Assembly (NCBI GenBank): GCA_030684815.1 | Contig: JAUXXQ010000156.1 | Location: 1 to 54,679 of the forward strand | From: Methylobacter sp. | GTDB lineage: Bacteria > Pseudomonadota > Gammaproteobacteria > Methylococcales > Methylomonadaceae | Length of the DNA: 54,679 nucleotides | Direction of reading: 5' to 3' | Shown here: piece after piece, positions 30,914 through 42,651 of the stretch | How the letters are laid out: the number at the start of each line of letters is the position of its first letter | Position numbering within the stretch: position 1 is the stretch's first letter | The notes under the pieces: model-generated | Seen by the model: the letters and a program-made list of their open reading frames with translations, nothing else | What the model was told of the DNA's origin: nothing | The model's database searches: none | Made by a program: the position numbers and the translations under genes

Positions 30914-32998
30914 GTGAATCCTATCAGGAAAGAATTTCAGTACGGCGATCGACTCGTTAAATTAGAAACCGGTGAAATAGCCCGCCAGGCCGATGGCGCA
31001 GTTATGATCGATGTAGAGGGTACGACACTGTTAGTTACCGTCGTCGGTAAAAAACAGGCCAGCGGCGGCGACTTTTTCCCGTTGACTGTGAACTATCAGG
31101 AAAAAGCCTACGCAGCCGGTAAAATACCGGGCGGCTTTTTTAAGCGGGAAGGGCGTCCCAGTGAAAAAGAAACCTTAACCTCACGCTTGATTGACCGACC
31201 TATCCGTCCTCTGTTCCCTGAGGGCTACACCAACGAAGTTCAGATCATTGCCACCGTTGTATCGCTCAATCCTGAAGTTGATCCCGAAATTCCCGCCTTA
31301 TTGGGCGCCTCCGCTGCCTTGGCAGTTTCAGGCCTGCCTTTTAACGGCCCCGTAGGTGCAGCCACAGTCGGTTATAAAGACGGTGCCTATTTATTAAACC
31401 CAAGCCCTGCTGCCTTGAAAGAATCGCAGCTGGAATTGGTCGTTGCCGGAACCGCCCATGCGGTATTAATGGTCGAATCGGAAGCCGACAACCTGTCGGA
31501 AGAAGTGATGCTGGGCGCGGTTTTATTCGGTCATGAGCAAATGCAGGTTGCCATCAGCGCCATTAACGAATTTGCCGCTGCTGCCGGCGCAGGCGTTGTT
31601 GAGTGGGTTGCTCCTGAAGTGAATGCCGAACTTAAAAAACGCGTCACTGACGAAGTTGAAGCCGGTATAAAAGCCGCTTATCAAGTCGCGGAAAAACTGG
31701 TCAGACAAGAGCAGTTGAAAGACATCAGAAATGCCGCTGTTGAAAAACTGATGGCCGATGCCGAATATGCCGAAAGTGACATTCGCGGCATTATTGAGCA
31801 CTTGGAATACCGCATCGTTCGTAACGCAATTTTGAACGAAAGCAAACGCATAGACGGACGTGCCTTAGACAAAATCAGACCGATTACGGTCAGAACCGGC
31901 GTATTGCCCAGAACTCACGGTTCGGCATTATTTACCCGTGGCGAAACTCAAGCACTGGTTATCGCAACATTAGGCACACAACGCGATGCGCAAATCATCG
32001 ACGCATTGGCCGGTGAGTACAAAGAACCGTTTATGCTGCATTACAATTTTCCTCCGTACAGCGTCGGCGAAACCGGCTTTGTCGGCTCGCCAAAACGCCG
32101 CGAAATCGGTCATGGCCGTTTGGCGAAACGTGGCGTTGCCGCCGTGTTGCCGAACATGGAAGAATTTCCCTACACCCTGCGCGTCGTGTCTGAAGTGACC
32201 GAATCCAACGGCTCAAGCTCAATGGCATCAGTTTGCGGCAGCAGTTTGGCGTTAATGGATGCCGGTGTGCCGATCAAATCACCGGTTGCGGGTATCGCAA
32301 TGGGCCTGATTAAAGAAGGCGATAACTTTGCAGTCTTGTCCGACATCATGGGTGATGAAGATCATCTGGGCGACATGGACTTTAAAGTCGCAGGTTCCGT
32401 AGACGGCATCACCGCGCTGCAAATGGACATCAAAATTGATGGCATTACCGCAGAAATCATGAAGACAGCGTTGGAGCAAGCAAAACATGGCCGTTTGCAT
32501 ATCCTGGGTGAAATGAACAAAGCCTTGTCTTCCACCCGTGAAGAAATGTCCGATTTCGCACCGCGTATTATCACGTTCAAAATTGATCCTGCAAAAATCC
32601 GCGAAGTGATCGGCAAAGGCGGCGCAACCATCCGTAGCATCACCGAACAAACCGGCGCCAGTGTTGATTTGACCGATGACGGTGTGGTTAAAGTGGCATC
32701 CGTTGATAAAGCCGCTGGTGAAGAAGCGCGCCGTTTGATCGAAGAAATTACCGCTGAAGTTGAAGTCGGCAAAGTCTACGAAGGCAAAGTCGTGCGCTTA
32801 ATGGATTTCGGTGCTTTCGTAACCATATTGCCCGGCAAAGACGGCTTGGTTCATATCTCGCAAATTTCAGACGAACGCGTGGATAAAGTCAGCGACAAAC
32901 TGAATGAAGGCGATATCGTTAAAGTCAAAGTGCTGGAAATTGACCGTCAGGGCAGGGTTAGGTTGAGCATGAAAGAAATCGAGATCGATGCAGAGTAA
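30914..32998 (+). CDS. pnp: Polyribonucleotide nucleotidyltransferase (PNPase)
   Basis: 694 residues. Phosphorolytic 3'-5' RNA decay enzyme and degradosome component. Two RNase PH domains (about 10-145 and 310-540; [29 protein letters not shown], then [16 protein letters not shown]), a helical linker, KH ([16 protein letters not shown]) and S1 ([31 protein letters not shown]). It ends about 20 residues after S1, slightly shorter than E. coli (711). Confidence 0.97.
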
Positions 32999-33105
32999 GG
33001 TCAATTAAGGCAATAAATAGACCCTGTTTCCCATGAGGGCACGAAGTATGCGACGTATAATTGTTTTTCTCGTGCTTTCATGGTGAATTCAAGGGATTTT
33101 ATTTC

Positions 33106-33133
33106 TTGATTTAGTTAAGAAAACCTTTAGAAT
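33106..33133 (+). promoter_or_regulatory. Promoter for tRNA-Lys
   Basis: TTGATT (33106-33111) and TAGAAT (33128-33133) with a 16-bp spacer, 15 bp before the tRNA. Confidence 0.6.
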
Positions 33134-33148
33134 TACCCGTCCTACATG

Positions 33149-33224
33149 GGGGTGTTAGCTCAGTTGGTAGAGCAGTGGACTCTTAATCCATAGGTCTAGG
33201 GTTCGAATCCCTAACGCCCCACCA
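33149..33224 (+). tRNA. tRNA-Lys (CTT)
   Basis: 76 nt with encoded CCA. Acceptor GGGGTGT pairs with ACGCCCC (one U-G pair), the anticodon loop CTCTTAA gives anticodon CTT, and the T-arm is TAGGG-TTCGAAT-CCCTA. It is the last host gene before the prophage. Confidence 0.95.
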
Positions 33225-33232
33225 ATAAAATC

Positions 33233-33263
33233 AAGGCCTTACAAGAAATTGAAGGCCTTTTTT
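33233..33263 (+). terminator. Terminator after tRNA-Lys
   Basis: AAGGCCTT repeated at 33233 and 33252 forms a hairpin around a 10-nt loop and runs into six Ts. Confidence 0.75.
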
Positions 33264-33323
33264 ATTATCTGAAATAAAATTTTTCCCATTCCTGTCCCAT
33301 TTCTAAAAAAACAACCGCAACGC

Positions 33324-33503
33324 TTGTGTGAAGACCTGCGATATTGTGTGAAGACCTGCGATATTTGGACAAGGTGATGGGACTAGCGGGGATGACTGGA
33401 GCCTAGACGGGACACGGGTTCTAGGGTTTTTTGGCTGTTTTTGGTTTTGCGCGATATTTGGCGTGATTTTTTCGGTTTTTTGTTTTTTTTGCGCGATATT
33501 TGG
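33324..33503 (+). mobile_element. Left end of the Mu-like prophage with putative transposase-binding sites
   Basis: A 20-bp unit starting TTGTGTGAAG and ending CTGCGATA is perfectly duplicated in tandem (33324-33343 and 33344-33363). The motif GCGATATTTGG occurs at 33358-33368, 33451-33461 and 33493-33503, all in the same orientation. Spacings of 93 and 42 bp echo the L1-L2-L3 arrangement at the left end of phage Mu. TGTGTG at 33345 (or 33325 in the first copy) supplies the 5'-TG terminal dinucleotide expected of Mu-type ends. The right end, needed to confirm the 5-bp target duplication, is outside the window. Early genes and the repressor follow in Mu order. The exact terminus is uncertain by one 20-bp unit. 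Confidence 0.7.
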
Positions 33504-33541
33504 CGGTGTCTGCGTTATTGGTTTTCTTGCTTTGGCCGGAT

Positions 33542-33724
33542 TTAACGGCTCCTTTCTTGGTTTTTTTCTGCGTTTCGTTTCTCGCCTATATATATAGTAT
33601 AACTGTCGCCATAATTTTGCCTACTGTTGTCGGTTATCGATACATTGTAGGTGTTGGTGATGGTGTTTTGCGTTTCTGTCGTCTGCCGTTGCTGCATGAT
33701 GGCTTCCAGTTCTTCTTTTAGCAT
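33542..33724 (-). CDS. Small hypothetical phage protein beside the repressor
   Basis: 60 residues: an acidic helical N-terminus (MLKEELEAIMQQRQ) followed by a Thr/Asn-rich stretch. It lies 14 bp downstream of the repressor on the same strand, with AAAGGAAAG before the start, so probably in the repressor operon. No family recognised. It overlaps the end of the transposase-site region but not the sites themselves. Confidence 0.5.
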   Translation of the reverse strand: MLKEELEAIMQQRQTTETQNTITNTYNVSITDNSRQNYGDSYTIYIGEKRNAEKNQERSR

Positions 33725-33738
33725 ATTGCTTTCCTTTT

Positions 33739-34209
33739 TTAGGTCATTGATTTGACTAGCTCGTTGAGTATGGTTGACGCGCGGTCTTGTCCGGCTTTCG
33801 CCCTTTTTTTATCTTCCTCCTCGTACATTTGATACATCAAGCCGATGGCTTTGGCCTTTTGGTCGGGCTGTAGGCGGCTCCGATGCTTGCTTAGCGCTTC
33901 TTCTATGGTTTCGATGGCGAGCTTGAGGCGCTGGTAGTCGATGACCACCAGCGGCTCCACCAAGTCGCCGATGGGCGCGTTGGGCTGGCTGACGGTGTCC
34001 GCCACCAACATCGGGCCTTGCCCGGTCAATAGCCATGTAGCATTGATGCCAGCATTGATTAAGCGAATGATAGCGTCAGCGCCTGGCTTGCTAATATCCA
34101 TCTCATACTTTTGAATCGTGCTAAACGGGATTCCTAATAAGGAGCTTGCTTCATCTTGTTTAAGCTTCTTATATTCCCTCCATTGTTTTAATCTGCCCCC
34201 GATAGTCAT
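33739..34209 (-). CDS. Phage repressor (XRE-type helix-turn-helix)
   Basis: 156 residues. The N-terminal helix-turn-helix (about 1-60: GGRLKQWREYKKLKQDEASSLLGIPFSTIQKYEMDISKPGADAIIRL) resembles Mu-family c repressors of the XRE class. The middle resembles a GINATWLLTGQGPM segment common in phage CI-type regulators. The C-terminus (from about 95) is helical and probably oligomerises; there is no S24 protease domain, so RecA-dependent self-cleavage is unlikely. It is transcribed away from the early operon, with an operator array starting at its own start codon. Confidence 0.8.
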   Translation of the reverse strand: MTIGGRLKQWREYKKLKQDEASSLLGIPFSTIQKYEMDISKPGADAIIRLINAGINATWLLTGQGPMLVADTVSQPNAPIGDLVEPLVVIDYQRLKLAIETIEEALSKHRSRLQPDQKAKAIGLMYQMYEEEDKKRAKAGQDRASTILNELVKSMT

Positions 34210-34273
34210 GTCGCAACCAATGCGGTCTGTTGCGACACACTCACTTTTTTCTGTTGCGACACTGTCGCAACAG
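34209..34273. promoter_or_regulatory. Repressor operator cluster, GTTGCGACA boxes
   Basis: GTTGCGACA or its complement TGTCGCAAC occurs at 34209-34217, 34229-34237, 34253-34261 and 34263-34271, with a fifth at 34331-34339. The third and fourth form a perfect 23-bp palindrome (34251-34273). One box overlaps the repressor start codon, implying autoregulation. These lie exactly between the divergent repressor and Ner-like genes and are the natural repressor-binding sites. Confidence 0.75.
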
Positions 34274-34350
34274 TAAGCATTTGATAATAATAAATAAAAT
34301 TAAAAATCATTGGTTTGTTCTCCCGACTCTGTTGCGACAAAAATAAAATA

Positions 34351-34398
34351 AATCCTGATTAGGATTCTTTTTGTTTGACTGAACTCCTAATTAGGAGT
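34351..34398. promoter_or_regulatory. Second operator pair, TCCTNATTAGGA palindromes
   Basis: AATCCTGATTAGGATT (34351-34366, one mismatch pair) and ACTCCTAATTAGGAGT (34383-34398, perfect) are two related 16-bp palindromes whose starts are 32 bp apart, three helical turns. They differ from the GTTGCGACA boxes and lie directly upstream of the Ner-like gene, so they are candidate sites for that protein. Confidence 0.6.
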
Positions 34399-34439
34399 CT
34401 AATAATCACTCGTTATTTAACTTGATGAAGGAAAAGACT

Positions 34440-34781
34440 ATGAATGACCTAAGCACAAAAAAAGCCAGTCAAGACGTGGAACCCGCGCAGGACTGGCACC
34501 CCGCCGACGTTAAGGCGGCGCTGGCTAAAGCCGGTTACACGCTCGCGGCACTGGCCGAAGAGCATGGTTTAAAAGGCGGCGCAACACTGTCGAAAGCGTT
34601 GACCTCCAGTTTTCCTATTGCCGAGAAGCGTATTGCTGACGCTATCGGCGTCCATCCTAAAGTGATCTGGCCGAGCCGCTATAACGAAGACGGCAGCCGC
34701 AAACTGCAAGGCTTTAGAGCGATAGAGTCTAGCCGAAGAATGGCGAAAGCTCAAGCTAAGGCAAATGGAGAGCAGCCATGA
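34440..34781 (+). CDS. Ner-like transcriptional regulator
   Basis: 113 residues from MNDLSTKKAS; AAGGAA lies 6 bp before this ATG. The core (about 20-85) matches the Mu Ner/SfsB helix-turn-helix family: DWHPADVKAALAKAGYTLAALAEEHGL, then LSKALTSSFPIAEKRIADAIGVHPKVIWPSRY. In Mu, Ner shuts down repressor and early transcription soon after infection. First gene of the rightward early operon; its stop overlaps the next start (ATGA). Confidence 0.85.
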   Translation: MNDLSTKKASQDVEPAQDWHPADVKAALAKAGYTLAALAEEHGLKGGATLSKALTSSFPIAEKRIADAIGVHPKVIWPSRYNEDGSRKLQGFRAIESSRRMAKAQAKANGEQP

Positions 34782-34933
34782 GCACGGAGGCGGATGTTTA
34801 TGAGCTTGATTTTAAAGTTCGTAGTGTTTCAGAAGCAGGTGACGTCACTTATATGTGTCCTGATTTCAGCGTGCTGATCGATACAGAGACTGGGTTTATA
34901 TCTGCTGTATTCGGTACTGGAGGTAAATCATGA
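34778..34933 (+). CDS. Small hypothetical early protein (51 aa)
   Basis: 51 residues beginning MSTEADVYELDFKVRS, joined by ATGA overlaps to both the Ner-like gene and the next gene, which argues that it is translated. Predominantly beta-type and acidic; no family recognised. Confidence 0.55.
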   Translation: MSTEADVYELDFKVRSVSEAGDVTYMCPDFSVLIDTETGFISAVFGTGGKS

Positions 34934-35307
34934 GTCCAGGAGAGAGAGTAGAGCTTGAGGTAACAGTTTACCAGCTGACCGTACTGATGAATGCGGCTAC
35001 CCATCCGGGTCATCGGTTGCCGAAATTGGACGCTGTGGAAAACGGTACAGTCAATAGTCATCCTATCGAACTGAAAAAACTAATGTTAATTAGGCAGTTA
35101 GAGCAATTATCGATGATACGACGGTTGGTGCCGGACGATACGGAGTCCTGGGAGATGACTGAGCTGGGTGACGCGCTTGTTGAGTGGATCATTGAGGCAG
35201 CGGCGCAGTGTCAAACGCAGCTTGAGAGTAGGCATTCCCAAGCTGGCGCTTGGGAACGAGACAGAATGGCAAAAGCTCAAGCCAAGGCGGAAGGGGGTGA
35301 GGTGTGA
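34930..35307 (+). CDS. Winged-helix-like early protein with in-frame REP insertion
   Basis: 125 residues. The region IRQLEQLSMIRRLVPDD...WEMTELGDALVEWI has the LTxxG-type winged-helix pattern (about 53-90). Residues about 100-112 (SRHSQAGAWERD) are encoded by a REP-type palindrome (35221-35262) read in frame, followed by a MAKAQAKA tail that also ends the Ner-like protein. Function unknown, possibly DNA binding. Confidence 0.6.
   Translation: MSPGERVELEVTVYQLTVLMNAATHPGHRLPKLDAVENGTVNSHPIELKKLMLIRQLEQLSMIRRLVPDDTESWEMTELGDALVEWIIEAAAQCQTQLESRHSQAGAWERDRMAKAQAKAEGGEV
35221..35262. repeat. REP family A, single unit inside a gene
   Basis: CCCAAGCTGGCGCTTGGG palindrome with the flanks GGCATT and AACGAGA. 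Related to the longer copies at 38321, 45587, 48732 and 54441. Confidence 0.7.
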
Positions 35308-35471
35308 AAACGGTCATGACGCCCTTTCCTGATGTTGAGGCACCGTGTCCTAAGTGTGATCGGTCGGTACTGATCGGGGGCTGGGAGTTTGAGACGAGTT
35401 CGCTTTATTTTGCTAAAGCGGTTGCGGTTTGCGAGGACTGTGATGTTGAGTTCTTGGTTCAGGTTGAATAG
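35304..35471 (+). CDS. Small zinc-ribbon-like protein (55 aa)
   Basis: 55 residues with a GTG start overlapping the upstream stop (GTGA). Two cysteine pairs, CPKC (19-22) and CEDC (44-47), predict a zinc ribbon. Probably a small nucleic-acid-binding or structural early protein. Confidence 0.6.
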   Translation: MKTVMTPFPDVEAPCPKCDRSVLIGGWEFETSSLYFAKAVAVCEDCDVEFLVQVE

Positions 35472-35480
35472 GAGACGAGG

Positions 35481-35639
35481 ATGAATCGATATGCATTGTT
35501 GTTGCAAGGCGGCCAATGCGCACTGGACATTGACGCTTGGGACATGGGACATGCACTGAGAACGGCGGCGGAAAAAATTGCCGAGGGCTGGGCGGTGTAT
35601 GCAATCCGGTGCGAAAGCGGCTATGAAGCGCATCTTTAG
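35481..35639 (+). CDS. Small hypothetical early protein (52 aa)
   Basis: 52 residues, MNRYALLLQGGQCALDIDAW to YEAHL, preceded by GGAGACGAGG. Mixed alpha/beta composition, no family recognised. Immediately followed by a family B repeat. Confidence 0.5.
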   Translation: MNRYALLLQGGQCALDIDAWDMGHALRTAAEKIAEGWAVYAIRCESGYEAHL

Positions 35640-35640
35640 C

Positions 35641-35676
35641 GCGTTTAATCGCGGCCGGGTGGCCGCTCCCACAGTA
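35641..35676. repeat. REP family B unit
   Basis: GCCGGGTGGCCGCTCCCAC motif preceded by TTTAATCGCG. Related palindromes occur at 39199, 40137, 42526, 45725 and 51585, several of them read through as protein. Confidence 0.6.
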
Positions 35677-35686
35677 GGAGAAAGTT

Positions 35687-35878
35687 ATGTATACGATGAG
35701 TGATGAGCAATACCGGCGGATGCTGGCCGCCGAAGAAAAGATGGCGGAGGCCGGGGCGTTGCTGCGCGATTGCAGCAGCTATGCCTTTGCCATGGGGCAG
35801 TTCGAGGGCAGCGGCGAGGGCTCAGCGTTATCGCGGCGGGTGGATGCCTTTCTGCGCGATTGGGCGCTGCCAAAATGA
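35687..35878 (+). CDS. Small helical protein upstream of MuA
   Basis: 63 residues (MYTMSDEQYRRMLAAEEKMAEAG...), helical and acidic, with AGTAGGAGAAAG upstream. Its stop overlaps the MuA start (ATGA), so it is translationally coupled to the transposase. No family recognised. Confidence 0.6.
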   Translation: MYTMSDEQYRRMLAAEEKMAEAGALLRDCSSYAFAMGQFEGSGEGSALSRRVDAFLRDWALPK

Positions 35879-38319
35879 GCCCGCCGACCGACATTAACCG
35901 CCCGGCGTCGACGGAGGAGATTGCCGCCGCGCTGGGCTTATCGAAACGCTCGGCTGAACGCAAGGCCGACAAGAGCAACTGGCCTTACACCGAACAAGCG
36001 ACACATAGCCGCCACAAAAAACGCCTGTATGCGCTGAAGACCTTGCCGCAAGACGTGCAATTTGCGCTATTAAACAAACGGATCGACGACCCTGTCGATC
36101 AAACCCTTAATGAACAACAGGACACACACCATGCCACACAAAATACATTTGGACTTTCCCGACCCGATGACGCTAGACGAGGAGCAGCGGCTATTGGACA
36201 TGCGGCGCTGGCTGACCGTGGATCATCTGCTGATTCTGATAAGAATCAAACAGGACACGCCCTATCTGGCGGACATGGCCGACGGGTGGTATCCCCACCT
36301 GGACAGCCTAAAAGTGGCCGAAATACCTGCCTACCGGCTCAAGGAGGAAAAACTGCTGGAGATAGCGCGGACACGGGAGCTGGAGCGCTTGGGCTATCTG
36401 ACGCTGACGGCGGACGAAGCCTGGACGCTGACGGATTGGGGGCTGATGGCGCTCAAGTTTTGGACGGCGTACCTGTACGACACGATCCGAAGGCCGTTTT
36501 AAAAACAGCGTTGGCTAAACCCCAATCTAATCTGCCTCCCTTAAATAAAACGCAAATACGCATCCATGAAGCCATAAAACACATCGTCAATTACGTCACC
36601 GCCACTGGCTTGCCAAAGCGGGCCGCGTTGGCGGTGCTGAACAAGAGCTATGCCGATGGCAGTCTGTCTAAGACCTTGCGCTGGTCGCTGGAACATGCCT
36701 GGGAAAAGCGCCGCGACGGTTGCGTATTGAACGTGAGTACATATAGCAAATGGGAGGCCAACTTTAAAGAACGCGGCCACTATGCGCCGCTGAAGCGGGC
36801 CAAGGATTTCACGCTGAAGCCTTGGCATGTGTTGGCCGTTGACTTAAAGCGCCGCCCGCAAGGCAGTTCAAAGCGCTGGATACATGCCGAACTGGTCAAG
36901 GCCTTAGGCGACGATGCGCCGGGTTACAGCGCGATGTGCGTGTGGTTCCATGAAAAATTGAGCGAAAAAGACCAGCTCGAAGGACGCTATAGCGGGTCGC
37001 AACTGCGCTCAAGGAAGTTTTACCAACACCGCACTAGCGAGGGCTTGGAGCCCGGAACGCTGGTTCATGCCGACGGCTGGAACACGCATTTTAGTGCGCC
37101 GCACCCGGTCACTAGGGAATTCGTCACCTACGAAGTGTGGCATTTCCATGATGTGGCGACGCGTTATGTGCCAAAACCCGGCATTGGCTTGACCGAAAAC
37201 GCCTTGGTCATCACCTGCGCCCTGGAAAACACGGTGCGCGAGCTGGGGGTTCCAGCCCGGGTGCAGACCGATAGCACCAAGGTGGTTAAGGGTGCCGACC
37301 GGTTTACCAAGGCGATGCATTCCTTTGAGGAGCGGCTGGGGTTTACCTGGGTGCATCCCAAGGAAGTCGGCAACTCGCAAGCCAACGGTATTGCGGAAAA
37401 CTTTAATACCAGCTGGCTGGATAAGCGCTCGCGGGAGCTGGCGACCTATCAAAACCGCAACAGTATGGACGACCTGAGCTTTAAACGGGTGCGCAAGCTG
37501 ACCGGGCAAATGGTCAAGGCGATCAACAGCGGCGATACGGAACTGCGCGACCAAAAGAAGCGGGAGATTGAGCGGGTCGGTAAAGGCTTGGTGTTTGACA
37601 CCTATCGGCAAGCTTTCGATTGGGTCATTAAAGTTTGTCACGAATTTAACGACAGGCCGCACAGTTCGCTGAAGAAGGTGACTTGCCCTGCCACCGGAAA
37701 AAGGCGTTACCAGACGCCCCGTGAAGCGCTGAACGAGCATATCAGTCTGGGCTGGACGCCGGTGGCGCTGGACGAGCAGGAATTGATCGACGCTTTCAGA
37801 CCGCATGTGCAGGTCAAGGTGCGGCGGGAAACGGTGTCGCCTTGGGGCGGGATGCGCTACCGCAACCCTGAGGTATTAAGCCATTTGAACGGCAAGGAGG
37901 TGATTGTCGCTTATGACATGTCCGATTACGAGACGGTCTGGGTGAAGGACTTGAAAGGGGTGCCGCTTTGCGAGGCCACCTTTGTTGAGGCGACGCGTTA
38001 CCACGCGGTGACTGCACAGCAGGCGGACGAGGAAAAACGGGCGATTGCGGCGTTGAAACGCTTGGATAAAAAGCGTGATGCGGTAATGGCCAGAGTGCCT
38101 AATCAAGTTATCGAAGGCGAGGTATTAACTCAGGTACCGGTTATTTTCAGAGAGCCTGAGCCTGAGTTGGTGGAAGTGCCGGTGCCGTTTAGGGAGCCGG
38201 AAGTGGCGTTAAAAGCGCCGGTGTTGCCGGGGAATTTTAACAAGAAGGATGAGGAGGCGATGGGGAGTTATGAAGACACGGTGATGATGCTGCAAAAACT
38301 GAAAGAGGCCAAAGAGTGA
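35875..38319 (+). CDS. Mu-type DDE transposase (MuA)
   Basis: 814 residues from the ATG overlapping the preceding stop; the longer frame from 35770 only re-reads that gene. The N-terminal wHTH of Mu-type transposases (about 10-75: RPASTEEIAAALGLSKRSAERKA, LPQDVQFALLNKR) is followed by a Gly/Ala/Asp-rich segment of about 130 residues that looks unfolded. Then come the end-binding and catalytic parts, with Asp400 (HADGWNT), Asp466 (VQTDSTK) and Glu508 (NGIAENF) as the DDE triad. The beta-barrel (VSPWGGMRYRNPEVLSHLNGKEVIV) and basic C-terminus follow. It catalyses strand transfer for integration and replication. The unfolded segment coincides exactly with a nested frame (36131-36502). Confidence 0.9.
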   Translation: MSPPTDINRPASTEEIAAALGLSKRSAERKADKSNWPYTEQATHSRHKKRLYALKTLPQDVQFALLNKRIDDPVDQTLNEQQDTHHATQNTFGLSRPDDARRGAAAIGHAALADRGSSADSDKNQTGHALSGGHGRRVVSPPGQPKSGRNTCLPAQGGKTAGDSADTGAGALGLSDADGGRSLDADGLGADGAQVLDGVPVRHDPKAVLKTALAKPQSNLPPLNKTQIRIHEAIKHIVNYVTATGLPKRAALAVLNKSYADGSLSKTLRWSLEHAWEKRRDGCVLNVSTYSKWEANFKERGHYAPLKRAKDFTLKPWHVLAVDLKRRPQGSSKRWIHAELVKALGDDAPGYSAMCVWFHEKLSEKDQLEGRYSGSQLRSRKFYQHRTSEGLEPGTLVHADGWNTHFSAPHPVTREFVTYEVWHFHDVATRYVPKPGIGLTENALVITCALENTVRELGVPARVQTDSTKVVKGADRFTKAMHSFEERLGFTWVHPKEVGNSQANGIAENFNTSWLDKRSRELATYQNRNSMDDLSFKRVRKLTGQMVKAINSGDTELRDQKKREIERVGKGLVFDTYRQAFDWVIKVCHEFNDRPHSSLKKVTCPATGKRRYQTPREALNEHISLGWTPVALDEQELIDAFRPHVQVKVRRETVSPWGGMRYRNPEVLSHLNGKEVIVAYDMSDYETVWVKDLKGVPLCEATFVEATRYHAVTAQQADEEKRAIAALKRLDKKRDAVMARVPNQVIEGEVLTQVPVIFREPEPELVEVPVPFREPEVALKAPVLPGNFNKKDEEAMGSYEDTVMMLQKLKEAKE
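36131..36502 (+). CDS. Nested ORF inside MuA, putative winged-helix protein
   Basis: 123 residues from MPHKIHLDFPDPMTLDEEQR, in the +1 frame relative to MuA. CAGGACACACACC precedes the ATG (weak AGGA site); an earlier in-frame ATG is at 36110. The product has normal globular composition, with alternating hydrophobic and charged residues: VDHLLILIRIKQDTPYLADM, then RELERLGYLTLTADEAWTLT followed by DWGLMALKFW, an LTxxG-type winged-helix ending. In contrast, MuA read over the same bases is low complexity. The C-terminal pattern resembles that of the 34930 gene. Either a genuine overprinted or inserted gene within the MuA linker, or MuA itself is interrupted here. No known function. Confidence 0.6.
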   Translation: MPHKIHLDFPDPMTLDEEQRLLDMRRWLTVDHLLILIRIKQDTPYLADMADGWYPHLDSLKVAEIPAYRLKEEKLLEIARTRELERLGYLTLTADEAWTLTDWGLMALKFWTAYLYDTIRRPF

Positions 38320-38320
38320 A

Positions 38321-38373
38321 CATCAAGCAGAGCTTGAGGCTAGGCATTCCCAAGCTGGAGCTTGGGAACGAGA
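38321..38373. repeat. REP family A, partial composite copy
   Basis: CAAGCAGAGCTTGAG half-unit plus CCCAAGCTGGAGCTTGGG palindrome and AACGAGA. A further hairpin, GTGGGCA/TGCCCAC, follows at about 38381-38405. All lie in the MuA-MuB gap. Confidence 0.7.
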
Positions 38374-38468
38374 AGAAAAGGTGGGCAAAACAGCATTGCC
38401 CACCCTACGCAGTAACACTATCTGGGTGCAACCAGATGGATTTTTTAACTAAGCAAGAGGAATTATAA

Positions 38469-39197
38469 ATGAAACACCATTACGTTAAAACCAGTAATCA
38501 CATGTTGTTTATGGCCATGCTGCAAACGGTGGAAACCCGTGCGTCAGCGGAAGCGCGGATTTTGCTGCTGGCAGGTGAGCCCGGTACCGGTAAAAGCCGC
38601 TGTGTCGACAACATCGGCGCGGAACGCAACGCCATCCATATAGAAGGGATGCCGGGCATGAATGTGACCTATCTGCGCGACTTGTTGGCCTACGAATTGG
38701 GTTGCCAGGGCGGCTCCAAGTTCATGCAGCATAAAGCCATTGTCGATACCTTTATCCAGCGCAAACCGACGGTGATTCTGGATGAAGCGCAGCATGGGCT
38801 GGAGAAGAAAGCCGACTGTATTGAGTATTTGCGCCGGATCTGCGAACAGGCGGGCAGCGTGTTGATTTTGGTCTGTCACAGCAGCGAGAAGCATCGCTTT
38901 GGCGAACATAAATTGGCGCACATTGCCACCCGGATCAGCGCCCTGGTCGAGTTTGTACCGGCGACCTTGGCCGATTGCCAGTTGTATTTGGCGGAATTGT
39001 GCGAGGTGAAAGTCGATGAAGGCGTGGCCGCGCAGGCCTTGGCGCAGTCGCGCGGGCGTTATCGCTTGTTGTCGAATGCCGGGCGCATTTTGGAGGACAT
39101 TGCCGAGGCCAAGGGGGCGAAGTTTTTGACGGCGGCGGATGTGAAAGGGGTGATGCTGTGCCAGGATGCGATGAAGTCATTGCGCAAGGGCAAATAG
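38469..39197 (+). CDS. MuB-like AAA ATPase, target-DNA activator
   Basis: 242 residues. Walker A GEPGTGKS (about 36-43), Walker B VILDEAQH (about 100-107), an arginine-finger-type region ATRIS. It belongs to the MuB/TniB/ExeA-like AAA group. In Mu, MuB coats target DNA, stimulates MuA and gives target immunity. It directly follows the transposase, separated only by repeat DNA, with AAGAGGAATT before the ATG. Confidence 0.88.
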   Translation: MKHHYVKTSNHMLFMAMLQTVETRASAEARILLLAGEPGTGKSRCVDNIGAERNAIHIEGMPGMNVTYLRDLLAYELGCQGGSKFMQHKAIVDTFIQRKPTVILDEAQHGLEKKADCIEYLRRICEQAGSVLILVCHSSEKHRFGEHKLAHIATRISALVEFVPATLADCQLYLAELCEVKVDEGVAAQALAQSRGRYRLLSNAGRILEDIAEAKGAKFLTAADVKGVMLCQDAMKSLRKGK

Positions 39198-39198
39198 C

Positions 39199-39231
39199 GG
39201 CGGCGGTGGGAGCGGCCACTCCCACGACTCT
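39199..39231. repeat. REP family B unit
   Basis: GTGGGAGCGGCCACTCCCAC palindrome (GTGGGAGCGGC arm) directly after the MuB-like stop. Confidence 0.6.
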
Positions 39232-39272
39232 TATATATAGCATGATCCAAAAACAATAATACGGAGTAGATA

Positions 39273-39602
39273 ATGCGAAGTGGACAAAAAGCCCCCCGGA
39301 CACGCACCAGCGGCTTACGCGCGCGGGCGTGGTGGGTATTACGAAAAAACAAAAGCATGACCCTGGTCGAGATACAAACCACGATCTGTAACGGCGTGGA
39401 AAAAGACCCGGTGGCGAATTTGCGCAAGTACCTGAATAGGCTGGTTGACGCCGGGGTGATGCGCATCGAAGTGGTGGACGACGGCAAGCTGACCAGCAAC
39501 GGCAGTTACCGCTATACCGTCATCCGCAATCTAGGCCCTAAAGCCCCGATCGTGCGCAACGCCGGTACGGTGTTCGATCCTAACAGCGGGGCGCTGTTAT
39601 GA
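39273..39602 (+). CDS. Small winged-helix DNA-binding protein
   Basis: 109 residues. A basic N-terminus (about 1-20) precedes a winged helix (ARAWWVLRKNKSMTLVEIQTTI, NLRKYLNRLVDAGVMRIEVVDDG, YRYTVIRNLG). Such genes are common in the Mu early region between B and gam-like genes. Overlaps the next start by 4 bp (ATGA). Exact role unknown. Confidence 0.65.
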   Translation: MRSGQKAPRTRTSGLRARAWWVLRKNKSMTLVEIQTTICNGVEKDPVANLRKYLNRLVDAGVMRIEVVDDGKLTSNGSYRYTVIRNLGPKAPIVRNAGTVFDPNSGALL

Positions 39603-39898
39603 GTCTGGACTTATTTAAAGCCAAACGCGAAGAACTGGGCACCAAAGGCCTGGCCGACGCTTTAGGCATTACCGGCAGCGCGGTGCGCATGGTGTGCACC
39701 GGGCATTACCCTAACCCAACGCCGATTTTAAACCTGTTTGCACGGCGTTATATCAACATCGTGAGGTGTCCTTACATCGACGAAGACATTGGCCGCGACG
39801 TGTGCCGCAACCGTTCAACCGCGCCGCGCCCGTTTGGCGGCGCATCCAAATTAACCTGGTGGGAAGCCTGCCAGCTGTGTTCACAAAAAGGGGAATAG
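39599..39898 (+). CDS. Helix-turn-helix protein with cysteine-rich C-terminus
   Basis: 99 residues. LGTKGLADALGITGSAVRMVCTGHY is a Cro/LacI-like helix-turn-helix (about 12-40). The C-terminal half carries CPY, DVC and CQLC cysteines, possibly a small metal site. Typical of Mu-like early regions. Target unknown. Confidence 0.65.
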   Translation: MSLDLFKAKREELGTKGLADALGITGSAVRMVCTGHYPNPTPILNLFARRYINIVRCPYIDEDIGRDVCRNRSTAPRPFGGASKLTWWEACQLCSQKGE

Positions 39899-39900
39899 TT

Positions 39901-40104
39901 ATGTTTTTGAATAAATTAGGTTTGGCAAGCGGCGATACCGTGACCACGATGACGGCCATATCCAGCCGGGTGATCCGCTTGGAAATGGAGGTTGATGGGC
40001 AGGTGCAGGCGGCGGTGCTCAATACCGCCGAGTGCGATGCGCTGATTTTAGTGCTGAAGGCGGCTGTGCATCTGGCCGATGTGTATAAGGCGGGGGATTT
40101 ATGA
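39901..40104 (+). CDS. Small hypothetical protein (67 aa)
   Basis: 67 residues from MFLNKLGLASGD, 2 bp after the previous stop, with AAAGGGGAATA as ribosome site. Beta-strand N-terminus and a helical AECDALILVLKAAVHLADVY segment. The frame extending upstream to 39766 is a shadow. Ends overlapping the next gene (ATGA). Confidence 0.6.
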   Translation: MFLNKLGLASGDTVTTMTAISSRVIRLEMEVDGQVQAAVLNTAECDALILVLKAAVHLADVYKAGDL

Positions 40105-40472
40105 GTTTGTTTAATTTGGGCGGGAGTGGTCAGCCTGGTGGGAGTGGCCGCTCCCACGAGGGCGGCGGCTCCTACCAGGCGGACAGCATGAAGAGCTGCC
40201 AAATGCTAAACCGTCCGGTTGAGCCGGTGGCGATCGGGCAAGTTGCCAAGGTGGCGGCGCAGCTCAAGGATATGGGCTTTCAGGTGCTGACCGCGCAATT
40301 TGGTGATTGCCCGTCGGTCACTATTAAGCCTTGTGCCAATACGGTGCGCTTAGTGTCGGTCTGCACCGGACAAAGCGGCGCGGGTGGGCAGATGTACCGC
40401 GATTATGCGGCCGTTATGGATGGCGTGAAGGTGGTTTGGCATAAGCCGATGCGGCCGCTGGGGCTTAACTGA
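40101..40472 (+). CDS. Hypothetical protein with repeat-derived N-terminus
   Basis: 123 residues. Residues about 8-26 (GGSGQPGGSGRSHEGGGSY) are encoded by family B repeat DNA (40137-40181). The remainder (from about MKSCQMLNRPVEPVAIGQVAKVAAQL) looks globular. An internal ATG at 40188 could be the original start, with the repeat having extended the frame. No family recognised. Confidence 0.5.
   Translation: MSLFNLGGSGQPGGSGRSHEGGGSYQADSMKSCQMLNRPVEPVAIGQVAKVAAQLKDMGFQVLTAQFGDCPSVTIKPCANTVRLVSVCTGQSGAGGQMYRDYAAVMDGVKVVWHKPMRPLGLN
40137..40181. repeat. REP family B unit inside a reading frame
   Basis: GTGGGAGTGGCCGCTCCCAC palindrome plus GGCGGCGGCTCCTACCA. Forms the Gly/Ser-rich N-terminus of the surrounding frame. 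Confidence 0.6.
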
Positions 40473-40537
40473 TGGACGGGCTGCTGCTGTTTTTGGCAGT
40501 GCTGCTGATGATGCCGGTGGTTTGGCGGACTTGGTAA
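40472..40537 (+). CDS. Possible 21-residue membrane microprotein
   Basis: ATG overlaps the previous stop (TGATG). Product: MDGLLLFLAVLLMMPVVWRT and a final Trp, one short hydrophobic helix. Translational coupling is the only support; it could be chance. Confidence 0.3.
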   Translation: MDGLLLFLAVLLMMPVVWRTW

Positions 40538-40541
40538 AGGT

Positions 40542-40676
40542 TTAACCGCAGAGGCGCGCAGAGGATTTAAAAAACTCGGTGAGACTCTGCGGAAAACTCT
40601 GCGTAACTCTGCGGTTAAGCAGTAACACACAATTTAACTCTTATTATAGGTACACACATGAACGAATTAACCCACA
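40542..40676. repeat. Duplicated leader module, copy 1
   Basis: TTAACCGCAGAGGCGCGCAG starts a stretch ending with a mirrored CTCTGCGGTTAA; then comes an AT-rich segment (TTTAACTCTTATTATAGG) and the first six codons (MNELTH) of the DUF3164 gene. Nearly identical to 41622-41778. The AT-rich part offers TATTAT as a -10 candidate. Confidence 0.75.
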
Positions 40677-41281
40677 ACGAAATCCCCTTAGGCTACCTGC
40701 GCAACGGTAGCGGCCATCTCGTCCCGACCGCCCTGGTCAGCGAGATCGACAAAACCCGCGACAATCTTGTGCTGGAGATTGTCAGCAAAGCCAACGACTT
40801 GCGGACGATTATGGGCGATTTTAAAAACGAAGCGTTTGGCGACATCCAAGCCTTCGTCGAGCTGTCCGCTGAAAAATACGGGCTGAAATTGGGCGGCATC
40901 AAAGGCAACATTACGCTGTGCAGCTTCGATGGCCAGTATCAAATCAAATTGTCGCAGGCTGACGTGAAGATTTTCGACGAACGCTTGCAAGCGGCGAAAG
41001 AGTTGGTCGATGCCTGCATTCATCGTTGGACGGAAGGCAGCGGCAACGAAGTCAAGGCCTTGGTCGAACACGCCTTCCAGACCGACAAAGAGGGCAAGAT
41101 CAGCCTGGGGCGGATTTACACCCTGCTGCAACTGGATATTGACGACGAGCAATGGATGGCGGCGATGCAGGCCCTGCGCGATTCGATGCAAGTGGTTAGC
41201 ACCAAAGCCTATCTGCGCATCTACCGGCGCAACAGTTCCGGCAAGTTCGACCAGCTGGCGCTGGATTTGGCGGGGTTGTGA
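40658..41281 (+). CDS. DUF3164 family phage protein
   Basis: 207 residues. Matches the DUF3164 family of Mu-like phages: GYLRNGSGHLVPTALVSEIDKTRD, then YGLKLGGIKGNITLCSFDGQYQI, KLGRI-type YTLLQLDIDDEQWMAAM. An early-region protein whose role is not established. Its first codons are part of the duplicated leader module. Confidence 0.8.
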   Translation: MNELTHNEIPLGYLRNGSGHLVPTALVSEIDKTRDNLVLEIVSKANDLRTIMGDFKNEAFGDIQAFVELSAEKYGLKLGGIKGNITLCSFDGQYQIKLSQADVKIFDERLQAAKELVDACIHRWTEGSGNEVKALVEHAFQTDKEGKISLGRIYTLLQLDIDDEQWMAAMQALRDSMQVVSTKAYLRIYRRNSSGKFDQLALDLAGL

Positions 41282-41610
41282 TGATGGACGATCTGATGAC
41301 GCGTGAGGATATTGCCGCCTTGCTGGGCAAAAGCCGGGCGTTTACCGCTGAATTGTTGATGATGTTTGGTGCGCCGCCGGCGGTTTGCAAAAAGAACCGG
41401 TCGTTTATGTACCGACGCGTGGTGGTGATGGAATGGCTGGCAACCGAACCGTACCAACGGCATTTGCAGCAAGTTGCCGAGCGGAAACGCGCGGTGGGCT
41501 TGCGACTGGATCGGGCGAGGCCGAGCGCACTCGATCAGGCGCTGGCGTTGCAGTTCTTGACCGGTCGTGCGGTGGCCATCAACACCGGCCGTGGGCTCGA
41601 GTTTTATTGA
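41281..41610 (+). CDS. Small HTH-type protein
   Basis: 109 residues from MMDDLMTREDIAALLG, start overlapping the DUF3164 stop. The N-terminus (DLMTREDIAALLGKSRAFTAELLMMF) is an excisionase/MerR-like helix-turn-helix, followed by RSFMYRRVVVMEWLA as wing. C-terminal half basic and Ala/Arg-rich. Probably DNA binding. Confidence 0.55.
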   Translation: MMDDLMTREDIAALLGKSRAFTAELLMMFGAPPAVCKKNRSFMYRRVVVMEWLATEPYQRHLQQVAERKRAVGLRLDRARPSALDQALALQFLTGRAVAINTGRGLEFY

Positions 41611-41621
41611 TTTTAAAAGCA

Positions 41622-41778
41622 TTAACCGCAGAGGCGCGCAGAGTAAGGCGCAGAGTCTCGCAAAGGATTTAAAAAGCTCGGCGAGACTCTGCGGAAAACT
41701 CTGCGTAACTCTGCGGTTAAGCAGTAACACACAATTTAACTCTTATTATAGGTACACACATGAACGAATTAACCCACA
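41622..41778. repeat. Duplicated leader module, copy 2
   Basis: Same as 40542-40676 apart from about 21 extra bases after the first CGCAGAG and a few substitutions. It ends with the same AT-rich segment and the same first six codons (MNELTH), here opening the gemA gene. Confidence 0.75.
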
Positions 41779-42185
41779 AACAACAACTGGCAAAAATCCA
41801 CATTGCCAAAAAACAACTGGGGCTTGATGACGACACCTACCGCGCCCTGCTGATGCAGCTGGCAGGTGTTAACAGCGCCAAAGATTTAACAAGCGCAGGC
41901 CGTGCCAGCGTACTGGAACACCTGAAAAAAGTCGGCTTCAAAGGCAGCAAAGTGTACAAAGGCCGTCCGCATAATGCCGGGACAAAGGCCGCCAACGCCA
42001 AACAGCTGGGCAAAATCGAAGCGCTGTTGGCCGATGCCGGACGGCCTTGGGCGTATGCCCTTGCCCTGGCTAAGCGCATGTACAAAAAGGACGCGTTGGA
42101 ATTTTGCGACGGGCGGGAATTGGCCGGGATTATTGCCGCGCTGGCGAAGGATGCGGCGAAACGGGGAGGCGATGATGCAGCTTAA
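41760..42185 (+). CDS. GemA-like regulatory protein (Mu gp16)
   Basis: 141 residues of the DUF1018/GemA family: AKIHIAKKQLGLDDDTYRALLMQLAGVNSAKDLTSAGRASVLEHL (seen in part), then QLGKIEALLADAGRPWAYALALAKRM and LAGIIAALAKDAAKR. In Mu, GemA alters host gene expression and DNA topology. N-terminal codons come from the duplicated leader. Confidence 0.85.
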   Translation: MNELTHKQQLAKIHIAKKQLGLDDDTYRALLMQLAGVNSAKDLTSAGRASVLEHLKKVGFKGSKVYKGRPHNAGTKAANAKQLGKIEALLADAGRPWAYALALAKRMYKKDALEFCDGRELAGIIAALAKDAAKRGGDDAA

Positions 42186-42651
42186 CCGATGCCCCATCTG
42201 CCACAGCCGGATTAGCGTAGACGCGCTGGTACAGGATGAGGCCGGGCGGGAATTGCTGGGGCTGCTGGTGCGGCTGGACATCGAGTCCGGCAGCGCGCTG
42301 GTCGGTTATCTGGGTCTGTTCCGCTCACCCAGCCGCGATCTGGCTAATGATCGGGCGCTGAAACTGGCGAAAGACGCGCTGGGTTTGGGTCATGCCGGGA
42401 ATGTCGCCCAGGCCATGCGGCAGACCGTGGACAGCTTGCAGGGCAAGGGCGGCAGGGCATTGACTAACCATAATTATTTAAAACGGGTGCTGGAGGATTA
42501 TGTACTGGTCAGTGAAAGCGACTCACCGGGTGGGAGCGGCCACCCGGCCGCGATTAACCCAAGTCGGGGCCGGGTGGCGGCTCCTACAGGCGCCACCAGC
42601 AAGACCGCGCAAGCCCTGCAAGCGTTGGAGGATTTCGGCAATGGCTACTGA
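42172..42651 (+). CDS. Phage protein with N-terminal Cys pair and repeat-derived segment
   Basis: 159 residues from MMQLNRCPICHS (GGGGAGGCG ribosome site; overlaps gemA by 14 bp). CPIC at 7-10 may be half of a zinc site. The helical middle (LAKDALGLGHAGNVAQAMRQTVDSL) recurs in Mu-like phages downstream of gemA. Residues about 119-145 (GGSGHPAAINPSRGRVAAPT) are a family B repeat pair read in frame. Confidence 0.6.
   Translation: MMQLNRCPICHSRISVDALVQDEAGRELLGLLVRLDIESGSALVGYLGLFRSPSRDLANDRALKLAKDALGLGHAGNVAQAMRQTVDSLQGKGGRALTNHNYLKRVLEDYVLVSESDSPGGSGHPAAINPSRGRVAAPTGATSKTAQALQALEDFGNGY
42526..42596. repeat. REP family B, inverted pair inside a gene
   Basis: GGTGGGAGCGGCCACCCGGCC and GGCCGGGTGGCGGCTCC-type arms face each other around an AATCGCG-like centre. 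Read in frame in the surrounding gene without a stop. Confidence 0.65.

Follow-up and report, generated by a model that had tools for sequence, protein, structure and literature searches.

Inh of Tn5 and InsA of IS1 are regulators of transposition that are made from the transposase gene, and phages carry genes embedded out of frame in other genes, such as Rz1 in Rz of lambda or E in D of phiX174. MuA is a textbook transposase, and annotation pipelines usually suppress an open reading frame (ORF) that lies wholly inside another one; consequently, nested genes are easily missed, even in well-studied families. Here we describe such an ORF in a stretch of 54,679 nt from Methylobacter sp. (contig JAUXXQ010000156.1, henceforth "the window"), where it occupies the +1 frame inside the gene of a MuA-like transposase.

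The locus resembles the phage Mu gene A family (PHROG 310) in the order of repressor, ner, A and B, in the N-terminal wHTH domain and in the Mu-type C-terminal domain. It differs in the presence of the nested ORF, which is missing from Gregale, whose linker is short and whose transposase was the most similar one found among cultured phages, and from 47 of the 59 rows of our transposase tree (including L095, L097 and L111, which are labelled as lacking the gene and miss the linker region). As with Inh and InsA, a second product of the same gene could regulate transposition in proportion to the transposase; however, Inh has the frame and the sequence of the transposase and InsA has the N-terminal part in common with it, whereas the nested protein is read out of frame (+1) and is unrelated in sequence. 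Rz1 and E provide the other likeness, a complete gene inside another frame with a start of its own, but in the present case the outer frame encodes a low-complexity linker, relatives that lack the embedded gene have a much shorter one, and a paralogue of the embedded protein is encoded by a gene that stands alone. We found no description of a nested gene in the MuA linker in the literature on overlapping genes and transposases, on MuA domains, or on Mu-like prophages and Methylomonas, among which few subscription papers were covered. The overlapping genes of phage Fc02 adjoin the repressor and, according to the abstract, do not lie in the transposase (PMC9936078).

The early region and the nested reading frame

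The early region of the Mu-like prophage in the window shows the order repressor, ner, small gene, A, B. On the minus strand there is an ORF that, by eye, resembles a repressor gene (33739-34209), followed on the plus strand by a ner-like repressor gene (34422..34781; Pfam HTH_35, E=1.7e-24; PHROG 769, transcriptional repressor, E=3.2e-26), a small gene at about 34930..35307, the transposase gene (35875..38319) and the gene of a MuB-like AAA ATPase (38469..39197; PHROG 296, DNA transposition protein, E=3.1e-26; Pfam AAA_22, E=1.6e-11). The transposase thus has a ner-like gene upstream and a MuB-like gene downstream, as is typical of MuA, and matches both PHROG 310 (transposase, E=4.7e-58) and Pfam Mu-transpos_C (E=4e-10). 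Its ORF is listed from 35770; as the start we picked by eye the first ATG, at 35875, which overlaps the stop of an upstream ORF (35687-35878). Further down the early region there is a 131-bp direct repeat with 96% identity (40547-40677 and 41649-41779). All 10,442 bases compared of another contig (L042, JAUXOM010000036.1), binned as a Rhodocyclaceae MAG, are 100% identical to positions 31875-42316 of the window, which means that either the contig was misbinned or the same prophage occurs in two hosts.

The domain names used here for the transposase are those of phage Mu, which we presume to apply. The alignment with seven relatives places a wHTH-type domain at 35875..36105 (end approximate), and this alignment together with the homology search assigns 36547..38316 to the end-binding and catalytic part and the C-terminal tail; conserved acidic blocks, candidates for the catalytic DDE triad, are visible in it. 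Between the two parts lies the nested gene of 123 aa (plus strand, 36131..36502), with an ATG at 36131, the last sense codon ending at 36499 and the stop codon at 36502. It is preceded by a Shine-Dalgarno-like AGGA (36119..36122) located 8 nt before the ATG (pairing energy -4.0), and the +1 frame is free of stops from 36074. Read in the MuA frame, in which the transposase ORF stays open across the nested gene, the same DNA (36130..36501) encodes a low-complexity linker with 53% Gly/Ala/Asp/Ser and 15% V/I/L/M/F/Y/W; the nested protein contains 41% of the latter residues. The original prediction, of a low-complexity MuA frame over a globular +1 frame, placed between the wHTH and the end-binding and catalytic part, is therefore borne out in both composition and position.

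Relatives of the nested gene

A search with the transposase body matched 9 of 237 genomes of the host family (E 1e-10 or better), the source genome included. Eight full-length copies were compared first: the nested +1 ORF is present in five (the window, L023, L024, L026 and L030), and three (L022, L025 and L027) have a short linker instead, so that homologs without the segment, anticipated as a check, do exist. One of them, L022, has a transposase body 68% identical to that of the window, and its transposase ORF is the same as that of L043, from Methylobacter marinus A45, in line with a host that is probably a methanotroph of the Methylococcales. When 311 genomes of the order were searched in six frames with a profile built from the five nested proteins, 7 gave a match; four of these had contributed to the profile, and in the remaining three (L037, L038 and L039) the match again lies within a MuA-like ORF and in the +1 frame. 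Against the ORFs of the loci, this profile recovered seven of the eight other members, of which L037-L039 had been obtained via the nested profile itself and L028 (a weak member, E=4e-4), L065, L066 and L068 via the transposase; L086 was added by position. The whole set comprises 13 distinct MuA-like genes with a +1 ORF between the wHTH and the end-binding part, each with its own ATG. L037, L038 and L028 belong to a distant branch of the transposase tree, and in L039 the nested ORF sits in a truncated remnant of a transposase, recognized from its N-terminal part. L108, also examined, lacks the nested gene.

Leave-one-out HMMs recovered 12 of the 13 members among 7,195 unique ORFs. The one missed is L086, for which homology to the family is thereby not demonstrated; it has a nested +1 ORF (L086:1586-1936) with a Shine-Dalgarno site inside a transposase on a separate branch, and is perhaps an independent case of the same arrangement. 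Rather than a conserved MuA frame over an unconserved +1 frame, which would speak against a nested gene, we found the reverse: the linker identity in the MuA frame between carriers is mostly 10–30%, and the +1 frames are open and homologous.

Searches beyond the known carriers added no members. With three of the 13 proteins as queries against phage records, two gave no match and the window's protein only a match with E=1; the latter had no match in plasmids or in viral contigs, and two scans of viral contigs with alignments of the nested proteins returned no new contigs. A 10-member profile matched one of 369 genomes in a class-wide sample, namely the window's own.

The small gene between the ner-like gene and the transposase turned out to be a stand-alone paralogue of the nested gene. 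It was found among the window's ORFs by an HMM of nested proteins that did not contain it (E=2.9e-7), and it is the best non-member in all 13 leave-one-out runs (E 1e-4 to 1.5e-7), outscoring the left-out member in the runs of L024 and L028; in BLASTP it is 24% identical to the nested protein over 50 aa (E=8e-4). Used as a query, the paralogue found no match in phage records. The original prediction had left open whether a foreign gene was inserted or the linker overprinted, and this is now partly settled: the absence of the segment from near relatives and the existence of the paralogue favour a pre-existing gene that is read through by the transposase frame. A 51-nt direct repeat (73%; 34737-34787 and 35263-35313) has one copy at the end of the ner-like gene and the other at that of the paralogue, both encoding RMAKAQAKA. 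The interval between ner and A looks like a cassette site, since in L107 other sequence lies between similar repeats.

AlphaFold2, run on 13 sequences, predicts for the nested protein a helix, a helix, a poorly modelled loop (47-60), a helix, two strands and a helix (pLDDT 79, pTM 0.69), which is the correct order of elements for a winged helix. In Foldseek searches of the PDB the matches are mostly winged-helix regulators (MexR, Csa3 and MepR; best E 0.33, hence weak), with DtxR, TubR and MotA ranked lower, and among viral structures there was no match at E 0.001. A profile search of PDB sequences identified TubR (4asn, E=6e-4) and SSO2273 (E 0.009). The nested protein is thus similar to winged-helix proteins of the TubR, MarR and DtxR types in the helix-helix-helix-strand-strand-helix plan, but has no significant structural match to them. 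The suggestion of a winged-helix-like C-terminus agrees with the model and with the profile matches, neither of which is strong, and on this basis we regard the protein as probably a DNA-binding winged helix. The database search proposed for the 123-aa product yielded the homologs in relatives described above but no convincing family in Pfam (best E 0.0058, in two of 13 members) or PHROGs (best E 0.0066, in one of 13), and no match among the PADLOC defence models.

Constraint on both reading frames

The starts of the 13 nested ORFs show a median Shine-Dalgarno pairing of -5.8, compared with -2.6 for 222 other ATGs that lie out of frame in the same genes (p=2e-6). L026 has the weakest pairing (-2.9), barely above background. 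When the MuA-frame codons of the window were shuffled synonymously, the +1 frame was open in 0.6% of trials, and when the nested codons were shuffled the MuA frame was open in 8%. Over the whole set, 1.0–3.8 stops per gene are predicted for the nested frame when the MuA-frame codons are shuffled, and 0.07–5.6 for the MuA frame when the nested codons are; none is observed in any of the 13 genes in either frame (Fisher p=4e-12 and p=2e-8, respectively). With L086 and L068 (left out as a near relative of L030) removed, the values are 1e-10 for the nested frame and 1e-8 for the MuA frame; for L028 alone the test is powerless (p=0.93 and 0.23). In the third frame the stop count is about as expected under codon permutation. 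Stop avoidance in both coding frames and its absence from the third, together with conservation in place (13 genes by position, 12 by leave-one-out HMM), are the features of an embedded gene.

Substitution patterns point in the same direction in a single pair. L030 and L068, which align without gaps, differ at 23, 24 and 38 of 119 codons in nested positions 1, 2 and 3, a bias that is not significant alone (p=0.08) but fits selection on the nested frame, because nested position 2 is the third position of the MuA frame. Third-position changes in this pair are fewer in the nested stretch (38 of 119) than in the catalytic part (275 of 559; p=6e-4), as expected where two frames are read; this suppression is confined to L030/L068, and in the remaining four pairs for which the catalytic part served as a control, third positions differ about equally often in the two parts. 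The amino-acid identity of the nested frame exceeds that of the MuA frame in all seven pairs, a comparison that is biased in six of them, as they were aligned on the nested protein, and free of this bias only in L030/L068 (0.67 vs. 0.61).

That the nested ORF merely follows from the Gly/Ala/Asp-rich linker, with a +1 frame open by chance, is extremely improbable, because, although several relatives have long but Pro/Arg-rich +1 or +2 frames here, the nested frames avoid stops throughout, the nested proteins share homology among themselves and with the stand-alone gene, and their starts bear Shine-Dalgarno sites. Little more credit can be given to a split transposase, in which the wHTH would be a protein of its own, followed by the nested protein and by a transposase with a downstream start, and the MuA frame would be open only by chance. 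Singly, an open MuA frame is indeed not very surprising (p=0.08 in the window, 0.93 in L028), but it is stop-free across all 13 genes (combined p value as given above), and relatives without the segment have the wHTH and the catalytic part in one ORF. A +1 ribosomal frameshift leading from the wHTH into the nested frame, and hence to a wHTH-nested fusion protein, would account for the phase, which is +1 in all 13 genes. However, each nested ORF has its own ATG, the Shine-Dalgarno pairing is above background over the set, the +1 frame opens only 1–22 codons before the nested ATG, and +1 is also the stop-poor phase, in which the expected number of transposase-frame stops is the 0.07–5.6 given above, as opposed to about 7–15 in the other phase; we therefore consider this explanation very unlikely as well. 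For the same reason the constancy of the phase is a weak argument for common ancestry, and we dropped it: +1 is the phase to be expected from the genetic code alone.

With relatives in the same place in related prophages, the nested ORF looks real and overlooked rather than fortuitous, and from these sequence patterns we conclude that it is very probably a genuine, expressed gene.

Exchange between prophages and possible role

In the tree of 59 transposase bodies (rows with fewer than 380 model columns, 11 duplicates and 17 overlapping loci were left out) the nested gene is present in 12 rows. At least 8 changes are needed to explain its distribution, compared with a mean of 11.1 after shuffling (3 of 500 shufflings as low); the distribution is clustered but patchy. 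As the gene is absent from most relatives, it is dispensable for transposition as such.

The clearest case of exchange is L107. Compared with positions 34003-39184 of the window, it shows a DNA identity of 98.8% in the repressor-ner region (34003-34762) and of 96% in the wHTH (35889-36060). The identity ends about 70 bases before the nested ATG and resumes only at 38113, in the C-terminal tail (77%); the nested protein and the transposase body of L107 are different ones of the same kinds, the body belonging to another subfamily. Judged by these alignments, the nested gene has evidently been exchanged together with the transposase body beneath an almost unchanged immunity region, and the swap appears to be recent. 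A comparison of L053, which has the gene, with L056, which lacks it, revealed 91 bp of the wHTH at 91% identity (L053:1003-1093), no match in the preceding DNA within the gene, and 91% identity again from L053:1819, inside the body; with so short a match in the wHTH and none ahead of it, this exchange is not clean.

Among 12 genes, the distances between nested proteins correlate with those between the 150 residues that directly follow the nested gene (Mantel r=0.39, p=0.01, with no correction for the four comparisons made). For the wHTH (0.15) and the catalytic core (0.14) the correlation is not significant; the value of 0.71 for the MuA linker frame is expected, as it is encoded by the same DNA. 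The link to the end-binding domain thus comes from one clear recombinant and from four correlations among 12 genes, and it could arise from physical proximity alone.

The nested gene could also be cargo, with an anti-host, anti-defence or superinfection function unrelated to transposition, sheltered in a tolerant linker. Its patchy distribution (12 of 59 rows, at least 8 changes) and the position of the paralogue in a cassette-like stretch between ner and A would fit such a gene, as would the precedent of phage Fc02, whose exclusion gene lies in an overlapping frame near the repressor according to the abstract (PMC9936078). Against it stand the replacement of the gene together with the transposase body in L107, the correlation with the end-binding part and the lack of PADLOC matches, the last being a weak argument, as PADLOC models cover phage cargo poorly. 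A cargo function is possible, and we consider it about as likely as a role at the phage ends.

The explanation that we favour, with moderate confidence, is that the two-frame region contains a small gene inside the MuA-like linker and that both frames are read; the most likely role of the nested product would be to regulate or assist transposition. On the simplest view, a gene from a small winged-helix family, still represented by a stand-alone copy upstream, would have come to lie in the linker, where varied sequence is tolerated; the transposase frame would have stayed open across it, and both frames would have been kept since. Translation from the transposase ATG would yield a flexible linker that joins the wHTH to the end-binding and catalytic part, and translation from the internal ATG, which we infer, the 123-aa protein. 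Since the 123-aa protein would thus be made from the transposase message as well, its level would track that of the message.

In phage Mu, MuA and the repressor use a common operator, or enhancer, which MuA contacts through its wHTH. The enhancer and the ends of Mu and its early transcript from ner onward are among the elements described in PMC3820752. For the nested protein, a role at the phage ends, as a competitor or accessory of the transposase, seems preferable to one at the repressor operator in the lysogeny switch, because L107 has kept the repressor, ner and the wHTH while the nested gene and the transposase body changed. Taken by itself, the assignment of the nested protein as a transposition regulator or end-specific regulator is tentative, as it is drawn from such sequence comparisons. 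More tentative still is the idea of a mobile two-frame cassette, in which a complete regulator gene would travel inside transposase genes together with the end-binding domain, be read in the other frame as the linker of the transposase, and control transposition specifically at the ends from the same message.

If confirmed, a conserved out-of-frame partner gene in the MuA linker would represent a new layer of control in Mu-like phages, and the gain, loss and recombination of a two-frame segment could be traced across near relatives with and without it.
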